DNA of 33,819 nt from an uncultured Actinomycetes bacterium (lineage in GTDB: Bacteria > Actinomycetota > Geothermincolia > Geothermincolales > RBG-13-55-18), in assembly GCA_937128055.1 (NCBI GenBank), contig CAKZMC010000050.1, forward strand, positions 1 to 33,819, written 5' to 3'. A program made the translations under genes and the position numbers. The notes beneath the pieces are model-generated. The model was not told the DNA's origin. It made no database searches and saw nothing but the letters and a program-made list of their open reading frames with translations. How positions within the stretch are numbered: the first letter of the stretch is position 1; each line of letters opens with the position of its first letter. Below are positions 4,428-9,922 of the stretch, piece by piece.

Positions 4428-4504
<77 letters not shown>

Positions 4505-4558: not shown

Positions 4559-4578
4559 GAGGGGAGGCGGGGCGCAGT

Positions 4579-4784
4579 GGTGCCAACATAATGGGGTCAG
4601 GACTCAAATGTTACGTTTCCACAGTGTAATCAACGCAACAGGGTCAACGAAACGGGGTCAACGCGGTGGAGTCAACGCAGTGGGGTCAGGCATCAAATGT
4701 TGCCTTTCCGCGGTGGGGTCAACGAAACGGGGTCAACGAAACGGGGTCAACGCAGTGTGGTCAACACCCCCGGGGTGTCGACCA
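4579..4784. repeat. nested 14-bp repeat array ending in a near-perfect palindrome
   Basis: The array is built from 14-mers of the type GGGGTCAACGAAAC and has a two-level order. A 33-nt block starting GGGGTCAGG and containing TCAAATGTT (4593-4625) is followed by four 14-mers (4626-4681). The same block recurs at 4682-4714, followed by three 14-mers (4715-4756) and a partial unit. A degenerate 14-mer precedes the first block (4579-4592). The array ends in an inverted repeat, 4759-4770 against 4772-4783 (11 of 12 paired, axis base 4771), which starts in the last GGTCAAC unit. It is noncoding. It may derive from a transposon end or a REP-like element, but no transposase is present. Confidence 0.85.
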
Positions 4785-4794
4785 TGGGTGCTGG

Positions 4795-4822
4795 CTTTGC
4801 CGTCGGGAGCAACGGTTATAAT
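4795..4822 (+). promoter_or_regulatory. possible promoter upstream of the sortase
   Basis: A perfect TATAAT (4817-4822) stands in an otherwise GC-rich stretch. CTTTGC (4795-4800) is a weak -35 candidate at 16 bases. Transcription starting near 4829 would cover both copies of the duplicated sortase 5' end. Confidence 0.4.
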
Positions 4823-4857
4823 AGGCACCGGGAGCGCGAGGAGGGGCGGATCTCGTG

Positions 4858-5083
4858 CTCGACGCCGGGGGAGAAAGCGCCGGGGGTGAAATGCCTTGAG
4901 AGGACGTCACACCGCATACATCGCGGCGTTCGCCTCCGTGCTGATCGTCGCCTCCTTCGCGGTGCTGATGCTCGACGCCGGGGGAGAAAGCGCCGGGGGT
5001 GAAATGCCTTGAGAGGACGTCGCACCGCATACATCGCGGCGTTCGCCTCCGTGCTGATCGTCGCCTCCTTCGCGGTGCTGATG
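4858..5083 (+). repeat. 113-bp tandem duplication of the sortase 5' end
   Basis: Bases 4858-4970 and 4971-5083 are directly adjacent copies of the same 113 bases. They differ only at 4909 (A) versus 5022 (G). Each copy contains a G-rich RBS-like stretch, a TTG start and the first 25 codons of the sortase (its membrane segment). Because 113 is not a multiple of three, the first copy cannot extend the sortase frame. Confidence 0.95.
4896..5012 (+). pseudogene. truncated duplicate of the sortase start (38-residue leader ORF)
   Basis: In the first copy of the duplication the TTG at 4896 opens a frame for the same 25-residue membrane segment as the sortase (one change, Arg5 to His). It then runs into the second copy out of frame (LDAGGESAGGEMP) and stops at TGA 5010-5012. 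That stop overlaps the sortase TTG start (5009-5011) as TTGA, an arrangement typical of translational coupling. The ORF has the same upstream G-rich sequence as the sortase, so it could be translated and could affect sortase expression. It may equally be an inert scar of a recent duplication. Confidence 0.5.
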
Positions 5084-5650
5084 CCCTTCCTCTACGACCG
5101 GGTGAGGCGCGGCGCCGCGGAAGAGGGAGACGCGAGCGCGGATGCCGACGTGGCCAGGCCCCTCACCCACGACGAGCTGCTCGGCCCTCCCCTTTCCTTC
5201 GAAACGCCGGCCTTCATGCGCATCCCCGCCATAGGCCTGGACGAGGAGGTCAGGGAGGGGAGCGACGACGAGGAGGAGCTCTACGAGATCCTCGCCCTGG
5301 GGCCCATCCACCTGCCCCACACCGGTTTCCCGGGCTGGCCCGGGAACTGCGTCATCTCCGGCCACCGCACCACGAAAACCAAGCCCTTCAACCGCCTGGA
5401 CGAGCTCAAGGTGGGAGACGCCATCTTCATCCAGAACCCGCGGGGTATCTACGAATACCGGGTTTACGAGCTCAGGTTCATCGACCCCAGCGAGAACGTG
5501 ACCCTGCAGACGGAGGACCCCATACTCACCCTCACCACCTGCGCCCCCGAGGGCCAGGCCACCCAGCGCCTGGTGGTGCGCGCCAGCCTGAAGGGCTACA
5601 TTCCCGTGGAGGAACTGGAAGAGCAAGGAGGCGGCGAGAGGACGCCGTAG
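5009..5650 (+). CDS. class E sortase
   Basis: This 213-residue sortase has one N-terminal membrane helix (about 8-28), a low-complexity Asp/Ala/Glu linker (36-50) and a catalytic beta-barrel. The catalytic residues are visible: His119 in VISGHRTT, Cys178 in LTLTTCAP and Arg187 in QRLVVRA. The TLTTC and H-R-T pattern with a short C-terminus fits class E/D sortases of actinobacteria. Sortases cleave LPxTG-like (class E: LAxTG) signals and link proteins to peptidoglycan or to pili. No substrate gene is visible in the window, so it appears as an orphan housekeeping-type sortase. The TTG start follows a GGGGGTG stretch. The ATG five bases upstream opens only ATG-CCT-TGA. See the duplication at its 5' end. 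Confidence 0.9.
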   Translation: MRGRRTAYIAAFASVLIVASFAVLMPFLYDRVRRGAAEEGDASADADVARPLTHDELLGPPLSFETPAFMRIPAIGLDEEVREGSDDEEELYEILALGPIHLPHTGFPGWPGNCVISGHRTTKTKPFNRLDELKVGDAIFIQNPRGIYEYRVYELRFIDPSENVTLQTEDPILTLTTCAPEGQATQRLVVRASLKGYIPVEELEEQGGGERTP

Positions 5651-7015: not shown

Positions 7016-9922
7016 TCATGGAGCCGTAGGAGCCGTCGGAGCCGTCTGCTCCGTGAGCGAAGCCATCTGGTCCAGGAGCTGGCTCAGCCTGCCCATCCTG
7101 TCCCCGTAGGTCGCCCAGTCTCCGTTGCGCAGAGCGGTCTTGGCCTCGTCGTAGACCTGGTTGGCCTCCTGGATCAAGGCCGCGAGGTCCCCTTCGGGCT
7201 GCGGCTGCGGCTCGCGCTCCGGTTCGGGCTGCGGCTCCGCCCCGAAAACAGCCCGCAGCGCTTCCTCGAGTGTGGGCCTCATCTCCACTTGCGTGCCGTA
7301 TCCCACGATCACCCGCTTGAGCTGGGGTATGGCGGGGTTGGTGGCCAGGAGGTAGAGGGGCTCCACGTAGATGAGGGAATTCTCGATGGGGATGACCAGG
7401 GTGTTCCCCCGGATAACCCGCGATCCCGCCTGGTTCCACAGGGTTATCTGCTCCGAGATCTCCGTCTTCTGGTCCACCAGCGATTCGAACTGCTGGGTGC
7501 CGTTCACCAGCTTTCCCGCCGGGAAGGAGAAGTTCAGCAGCTCCCCGTAATGCGGGAAGTCGCAGCGCGCCGCCACCCAGTCCACCATGTTGTCCTTGCC
7601 GCGGGGGGTGAAGGGGAGCATGAGGACCATCTCCTCCTTCTCCTCGCCGGGAATCTTGAGGATCACGTAATAGGGCGTCACCGGCTGCGGCTCGGCGCCG
7701 GCGCCGTAGGTCTCGGTGGAGACGTCCCACACGTCCTCCTTCTGGTAAAAGGCGGTGATGTCGTCGATGTGGTAGGTGCGGAACATCTCCATCTGCACGG
7801 AGAAGAGGTCCTCCGGGTAGCGCAGGTGGCGCTTGATGTCCTCGGGCATCTCCTGCATGGGGGTGAAGAGGTCGGGGAAGATCTTGCCGTAGGTGAGGGC
7901 TATGGGGTCGTTCTCGTCCACCAGGTAATAGGTGAGGGTCCCGTCGTAGGCGTCGATGACCACCTTCACCGAGTTGCGTATGTAGTTGAAGTCATCCTGG
8001 TAGCGCTCGGAATAGGGATAGAGGTCGCTGGTGGTGTAGGCGTCGATGATCCACACCAGCCTCCCCTCGTCGGTGACCACCAGGTAGGGGTCGCCGTCCA
8101 GGCGCAGGAAACGCGCCACCTCCAGCGCCCTGTCCCGGATGTTCCTGCGGAACATGAGGCGCGACTCGCTCTTTACGTAGCCGCTGAAGAGGAAGGTGAT
8201 GTCCCGGTTGCGAATGGAAAAGGCCACCCTCTTCAGGAAGTTGGAGACGGGCACGCCGCCCTCGCCCTCGTAGTATGGGTCCACGAACTTGTTGGTGTTC
8301 CCCAGCGGGTAATCGATCTCCTGGGCTCCCGTGCGCACCACCACGTAATCGTGGGCCTGCTCGCCGTAGTAGAGTTCCGGGCGCTTCACCTCCAGCCCCA
8401 ACCCCTCCTGGGAAACGGGCGGTATATCCTTTATCACCAGCACCGGGTCGCCCTCCTGCGTGATCTGGTTGGTAGGGCTCATCACCAGGCCGTAGCCGTG
8501 GGTGTAGGAGAGGCGCTCGTTCTGCCAGGTGCGGGCGTCCTCGCGCAACTGATCCACCAAGAGCTCGCGCCCCGAAACCAGCATCTGGGTGTAGACGTCG
8601 CCGAACACGGTGTAGCGCTCCACGTCCGCGTCGTTGAAACTATATTCCTGCCGCAACTCCTGCCGCTGGTTGTAGACCTGCTGCACCAGGCGGGGGTCCC
8701 AGAGGCGGATGTTGCCCACCGTGGCCTGGTTCTCCTGGATGTCCTCGTAGGTTAGGTCGAGCTCCGCCGGGAAGAGGCGCCTCTCCACCACCGCCTCCTC
8801 CCCCTCGTCCTGGATACGGAAGGCGTCCTGGGTGAACTCTATGTTGTAACCTATGTACTCGCTCTCGCGGGCAAGCTCCTTGGGCCTCACCACGTAGGTC
8901 TGCACGATGAAGGGGTAGAGGGAGCCCGCAATCAGGGATACCGCCACTATGCCCACCAGCCCGGCCAGCGGCAGCTTCCATCCCCGGTAGCGGATGTTGA
9001 GGATGAAGAGCCCGGCGCATATGAAACAGGTGGCGATGAGTATCCAGTAGGCGGAGATCTGCGCGTGGACGTCCGTGTAGGTGGCGCCCGTCACCGGGCC
9101 GCGTTGCGAATAGAGGAGGCCGAACATGCTGAGGCGGAAACGCCACGCCTGCAGCAACAGCAGCAGCCCGGCCAGCACGGAAAGGTGGGCCTTGACGTGT
9201 GCCGCGAAGCGCTGTTTCCTGTCGCCGAAGTTGATGGCGCCGTAGAGGAAATGCACCAGGGCGGAGACGATGACGGTGAACACGAGGGTGGTGAAGAGCC
9301 AGCCGGTGAAGTAGCGGAGAAAGGGGTACTCGAACATGTAGAAACCGAGGTCCTTCCCGAAGATGGGATCGGCCTTGCCGAAGGAGGCGTGGTTGAAGTA
9401 CTTGAGCACGTTCTCCCACTGGCCCGCGGAAGACCACCCCACGACGAAGGCTATGAACGCCGACACCCCCAGGATGCCCCGGTCCAGCCAGCGGCCGGCA
9501 CTCTCCCGGAAGTTCTGCAGCGACTCCTCGATGGGGGAAAGCTCACCCGGTGGCCTCTCGTAGCGCGGCGTCAGCCTGCGGGCCAGGTAGATGTTCCCGT
9601 AGAAGATGACGAAGAAGATGATGCCGAAGGCGAAGAAGAGCCATATCTGGGTGGTTATTCTTTTCCAGAAAACGGAAGTGTATCCCACCTCCTTGTACCA
9701 GAGGTAGTCCGTGTAGAAGGTGGACAGCCAGGAGGCGCTGAGGATGAGGACCAGGAGGACCACGAGGACGACACCCGCTATCCACTTGGTGCGGGTGCTC
9801 ACTTTCTTCCATCTCTCGCCGAACCCTCCACCCTCCTTCGCGCCCCTACGGCGGAAGAGGAGCGGCGGCTCCCCGCCACCACCCTTGAAAAGCGACTCCC
9901 AGGGAAATTTTTCCTCCGGCAA
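7016..9922 (-). CDS. UPF0182 family large membrane protein
   Basis: This 968-residue protein has the UPF0182 (PF03699) architecture. A cytoplasmic N-terminus of about 45 residues is followed by seven hydrophobic helices (about 47-65, 88-110, 148-165, 205-228, 246-262, 292-312 and 316-338). Then comes a large extracytoplasmic domain with family signatures such as WYKEVGYTSVFWK, FTQDAFRI, NIRLWDPR, YTHGYGLVMSP and PELYYGE. The family is found in actinobacteria, cyanobacteria and some clostridia and its function is unknown. The C-terminus carries a Pro/Gln/Glu repeat linker (PEPEREPQPQPEG), a short coiled-coil-like helix and a terminal TAPTAPTAP. The TTG start at 9920-9922 follows AAGGAGGA; an ATG in between is out of frame. 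The sir2-type gene lies 78 bases upstream on the same strand. Confidence 0.93.
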   Translation of the reverse strand: MPEEKFPWESLFKGGGGEPPLLFRRRGAKEGGGFGERWKKVSTRTKWIAGVVLVVLLVLILSASWLSTFYTDYLWYKEVGYTSVFWKRITTQIWLFFAFGIIFFVIFYGNIYLARRLTPRYERPPGELSPIEESLQNFRESAGRWLDRGILGVSAFIAFVVGWSSAGQWENVLKYFNHASFGKADPIFGKDLGFYMFEYPFLRYFTGWLFTTLVFTVIVSALVHFLYGAINFGDRKQRFAAHVKAHLSVLAGLLLLLQAWRFRLSMFGLLYSQRGPVTGATYTDVHAQISAYWILIATCFICAGLFILNIRYRGWKLPLAGLVGIVAVSLIAGSLYPFIVQTYVVRPKELARESEYIGYNIEFTQDAFRIQDEGEEAVVERRLFPAELDLTYEDIQENQATVGNIRLWDPRLVQQVYNQRQELRQEYSFNDADVERYTVFGDVYTQMLVSGRELLVDQLREDARTWQNERLSYTHGYGLVMSPTNQITQEGDPVLVIKDIPPVSQEGLGLEVKRPELYYGEQAHDYVVVRTGAQEIDYPLGNTNKFVDPYYEGEGGVPVSNFLKRVAFSIRNRDITFLFSGYVKSESRLMFRRNIRDRALEVARFLRLDGDPYLVVTDEGRLVWIIDAYTTSDLYPYSERYQDDFNYIRNSVKVVIDAYDGTLTYYLVDENDPIALTYGKIFPDLFTPMQEMPEDIKRHLRYPEDLFSVQMEMFRTYHIDDITAFYQKEDVWDVSTETYGAGAEPQPVTPYYVILKIPGEEKEEMVLMLPFTPRGKDNMVDWVAARCDFPHYGELLNFSFPAGKLVNGTQQFESLVDQKTEISEQITLWNQAGSRVIRGNTLVIPIENSLIYVEPLYLLATNPAIPQLKRVIVGYGTQVEMRPTLEEALRAVFGAEPQPEPEREPQPQPEGDLAALIQEANQVYDEAKTALRNGDWATYGDRMGRLSQLLDQMASLTEQTAPTAPTAP

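Follow-up and report, generated by a model that had tools for sequence, protein, structure and literature searches.

A tandem duplication carrying the ribosome-binding site and start codon of a sortase gene, probably recent and private to one lineage

The DNA analyzed here, a stretch of 33,819 nucleotides from an uncultured Actinomycetes bacterium (contig CAKZMC010000050.1; hereafter, the window), carries an intact sortase gene whose start region is present twice. The encoded protein matches the Pfam sortase model PF04203 (E=1.3e-28; 99.7 bits against a cut-off of 26.6). Among the NCBIfam class models, class E (NF033747) fits best, yet it falls below its cut-off (83.9 bits versus 160). The His of ISGHR, the Cys of TLTTC, and the Arg of LVVR/LVIR/LIVR are conserved across the aligned orthologues, and we take these to be the catalytic sortase residues. 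A sortase match with E below 1e-30 exists in all 15 of the family's genomes that were compared. Reading in frame, a TGA codon shuts the sortase frame right upstream of TTG 5009; thus, this TTG is the natural sortase start. Orthologue starts lie at about the same place.

Several other features surround the gene. A tRNA-Met gene on the minus strand adjoins the sortase, and the same tRNA sequence is found upstream of sortase in several relatives; the adjacency appears to be conserved. An array (4573-4765) of two 89-bp copies, about 80% alike and made partly of 14-bp units, GGGGTCAACGAAAC, separates the tRNA-Met gene from the sortase promoter. Only a 26-base piece of this array matches elsewhere in the source genome (contig C177). 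Tandem units TCCTCGCAATGACGTTGTCCGGGGGG occupy positions 1196-1268, and these resemble a common intergenic repeat, CGTCATTGCGAGGA.

The start region itself is a head-to-tail duplication of 113 bp with a single mismatch, just as an earlier note on this DNA had proposed. Specifically, Tandem Repeats Finder reports a period of 113 at 4856-5084 (2.0 copies, 99% matches, 0 indels, score 451), and a self-comparison at a shift of 113 yields 99.1% identity across 4856-4971. The limits given previously, 4858-5083, were roughly right, starting 2 bases late and ending 1 base short. The copies match at 112 of 113 bases, and after them the strongest self-repeat here is the adjoining 89-bp array; together, these findings exclude chance similarity. 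Each unit comprises the ribosome-binding site of the sortase, its TTG start, and 25 codons. No further copy of the unit was found elsewhere in the source genome. The coordinates of all features are collected in Table 1.

Table 1. Features at and around the duplicated sortase start, in window coordinates
Feature	Position	Strand	Remarks
tRNA-Met gene	4428-4504	-	adjoins the sortase
TATAAT	4817-4822	+	probable -10 element of the sortase promoter
GGAGG	4840-4844	+	possible Shine-Dalgarno site for the 14-codon frame, from sequence
14-codon frame	4855-4899	+	GTG CTC GAC GCC ... ATG CCT TGA; from sequence and upstream-ORF scan
Copy 1 of the duplication	4856-4968	+	
Shine-Dalgarno-like site of copy 1	4882-4889	+	GGGGGTGA; from sequence
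38-codon leader ORF	4896-5012	+	first 25 codons of the sortase (membrane segment included), 13 further codons, TGA
Sole mismatch between copies	4909, 5022		A in copy 1, G in copy 2; residue 5 His versus Arg
Copy 2 of the duplication	4969-5081	+	
Shine-Dalgarno-like site of the sortase (copy 2)	4995-5002	+	GGGGGTGA; contains the in-frame TGA 5000-5002
Sortase gene, intact	5009-5650	+	213 codons, TTG start; Pfam Sortase domain at residues 70-194
TGC	5082-5084		3 bases after copy 2, same as the unit start; 3-bp junction homology

Comparison with relatives places the duplication in time. We considered the ten orthologues possessing both upstream DNA and an alignable start (another, L013, has only 20 bases upstream and was not counted). 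The start region is single-copy in 10 of 10, including the same-genus genome G001, in which DNA identity of 84% starts at copy 2. Across all the orthologues with upstream sequence, no second copy is seen at the start; self-repeats there score at best 8-11, versus 113 in the source genome, the exception being G004, with a score of 31 owing to an unrelated repeat spaced by 75 bp. Thus, among the genomes compared, the duplication is private to the source genome. Of the two alternatives offered by the earlier note, that the duplication is recent or maintained, the first is supported and the second is not. An ancient family-wide duplication is rejected, as none is found at the relatives' sortase starts. 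At residue 5, each of the ten aligned orthologues has Lys or Arg; copy 2 has Arg there, and copy 1 has His. For that reason we place the change in copy 1, with A at 4909 most likely the derived base, as expected of a copy freed from the constraint of serving as the sortase start; a single base is thin evidence, both for this direction and for relaxed constraint on copy 1. A different arrangement occurs in G008 (contig C11, L004/L031; 7615-7830 and 7834-8457), a relative in which the orthologous sortase gene is followed directly by a tandem repeat of its own 3' third, the copies having diverged.

The signals expected ahead of the gene can be assigned with varying confidence. The sequence TTATAATAGGCAC is common to the source genome and to G001, where it lies upstream of the sortase, and the TATAAT listed in Table 1 is the probable -10 element, although scanning this stretch with the sigma-70 consensus yielded no promoter call. 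Both copies have a Shine-Dalgarno-like site at the usual distance from the start, and several relatives have GGGAGGTGA or GGGGGTGA at the same place. Either ribosome-binding site can pair with a CCTCC just downstream in the coding sequence, forming an identical hairpin in both copies. The z-scores of these hairpins are -1.6 and -2.0, and that of the whole leader is -1.4. These values are not unusual, and we reject an RNA switch at the ribosome-binding site.

The duplication gives copy 1 an open reading frame of its own. Its product would be LRGRHTAYIAAFASVLIVASFAVLM-LDAGGESAGGEMP*, in which the first codon is TTG, read as Met if used as a start. The leader ORF ends at TGA 5010-5012, which overlaps the sortase TTG (5009-5011) as TTGA (5009-5012). 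The overlap is 4 nt, one of the two stop/start overlaps (1 or 4 nt) that mark a termination-reinitiation coupled pair. In this respect the earlier note was accurate: copy 1 encodes the membrane segment, its stop lies over the sortase start, and the layout is compatible with translational coupling. Its description of the last 13 residues as new does not hold, for they are an old 14-codon frame read through. Specifically, the frame opening at GTG 4855 has its TGA at 4897-4899 and so overlaps the copy-1 TTG, again as TTGA. Because this frame already stops over the copy-1 TTG, the TTGA predates the duplication. The 14-codon frame is itself probably incidental; GTG 4855 is absent from the aligned G001 leader, and the frame is not kept there. 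A conserved leader ORF can also be rejected, as the upstream ORFs of relatives differ in sequence and position and the GTG 4855 frame is lost in G001.

How often would such a junction arise by accident? Any TTG start that precedes an A-initial codon produces TTGA, and in-frame ORFs that reach it terminate there. We simulated 10050 arbitrary duplications, each unit starting in the leader and finishing in the coding sequence. In 3250 of these (32%), the leader ORF stops exactly at the TTGA of the sortase start. All 3250 have lengths of 2 modulo 3, and they make up nearly all of that length class (3250/3350). Thus, the overlap is no evidence of selection. The suggestion that the duplication created the coupling junction is not borne out, given that the TTGA is older and that 32% of arbitrary duplications end likewise.

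We favor an ordinary explanation, and we regard it as likely: a recent, lineage-private slippage duplication carried along a complete ribosome-binding site with its start codon, so that expression of the sortase continues behind an incidental short ORF. The event itself was probably replication slippage or microhomology joining at TGC, and it doubled the ribosome-binding site together with the TTG and 25 codons. Functional sortase would still come, unaltered, from copy 2. Copy 1, which has kept the original position relative to the promoter, is therefore probably translated, yielding a 38-residue peptide. Ribosomes terminating at TTGA could reinitiate at the sortase TTG; alternatively or additionally, ribosomes could load directly at the second Shine-Dalgarno site. 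An altered sortase level is plausible, and any change in output would probably be modest. Most likely, the arrangement has little effect on fitness, is probably short-lived, and readily collapses back to a single copy; loss of one copy through slippage or recombination is plausible.

The principal competitor is an assembly artefact, in which two contigs overlapping by about 113 bp, with one strain variant between them, were placed end to end, the organism itself being single-copy. Such a join produces precisely the pattern seen, left flank plus unit followed by unit plus right flank; the source genome is a draft of 210 contigs, and all relatives are single-copy at the sortase start. We nonetheless judge this account unlikely. 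A sample of 776 kb of unmasked sequence, drawn from the window and from other parts of the genome (about 29% of its length), contains no second near-identical tandem duplication of about 113 bp, which counts against a systematic overlap error, though not against a single one. Moreover, 3-bp homology at the join is expected in only about 5% of blunt random joins, as calculated for equal base frequencies.

The one other exact tandem case in this sample, of about 330 bp, lies on contig C45 within a repeat-domain protein. This protein is subtilase-like (L096, 10101-13583), and the exact tandem copy repeats its C-terminal domain (AFYFAEGTCRPGFTPYLCIQNPNDT...); the protein adjoining it (8621-9739) has three related domains.

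Two adaptive readings fare less well. The first is that the duplication was fixed for raising or lowering sortase translation, with no switching involved. It exactly covers the ribosome-binding site and start and leaves the sortase intact; however, a surviving duplication at this place is expected to spare the sortase anyway, so its placement is uninformative, and only one genome has it. We consider this reading very improbable. The second, put forward in the earlier note, is a reversible switch, in which gain and loss of a copy set the sortase level via a membrane-inserted leader peptide and translational coupling. The membrane segment and the 4-nt overlap would suit it, and there is precedent in phase-variable tandem copies ahead of Mycobacterium tuberculosis genes (PMC12817950) and in a phase-variable leader peptide controlling pil1 in Streptococcus gallolyticus (PMC3894217), but the duplication is private to one genome, no variant of another copy number was seen (one genome represents the species), the junction is older than the duplication, and the RNA structure is not unusual. 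Furthermore, while tandem copies of 113 bp permit loss, the homology available for re-formation is only 3 bp; collapse would therefore be near one-way, re-formation rare, and a two-way switch unlikely, in contrast to the M. tuberculosis and pil1 repeats. With relatives single-copy and the remaking of a lost copy dependent on those 3 bp, the switch finds no support, and we deem it very improbable. The same can be said of the proposal that unit copy number varies in the living population and that the self-copied leader ORF sets the sortase level by reinitiation, making a partial copy of the gene its own translational regulator.

Known systems show how the locus is familiar and how it is distinct. 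Promoter tandem repeats of M. tuberculosis, for example the 57-bp dop repeat, vary in copy number between strains and within cultures (PMC12817950). The likeness lies in near-identical tandem copies, tens of bases long, just upstream of or at a gene start, which short reads easily miss or miscount. Unlike those promoter units of variable number, the unit here spans a ribosome-binding site and start and is present as two copies in one genome. In S. gallolyticus, GCAGA repeats alter the length of the pil1 leader and act through a transcription terminator (PMC3894217). There, as here, a short leader ORF lies ahead of a cell-surface gene and has had its form changed by a repeat event; in contrast to pil1, the present locus lacks a tract of short repeat units, and the interval from leader to sortase gene showed no terminator on the plus strand. 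Spontaneous tandem duplications in pneumococcal capsule genes (Waite 2001, 2003), as the article citing them describes (PMC4022640), similarly repeat part of a gene in tandem, and losing one copy would restore the earlier state. By that description they lie within the gene's reading frame and abolish expression, whereas here the sortase frame is intact. Finally, other prokaryotes provide established cases of coupling at overlaps of 4 nt, and in Escherichia coli, coupling and de novo initiation can coexist (PMC6728339). The sortase locus resembles such termination-reinitiation pairs in its TTGA layout and in the Shine-Dalgarno-like site within the upstream ORF (PMC6728339). The known cases are pairs of genes, however, while in the present locus the sortase is preceded by an ORF freshly copied from part of the sortase gene itself.

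Two lessons follow from this locus. A TTGA overlap alone is no evidence of evolved coupling, because arbitrary duplications around this start would yield one in a third of cases. If the duplication is real, it neatly illustrates how a single slippage event can turn a gene's own start into a translated leader ORF while leaving the gene itself intact.
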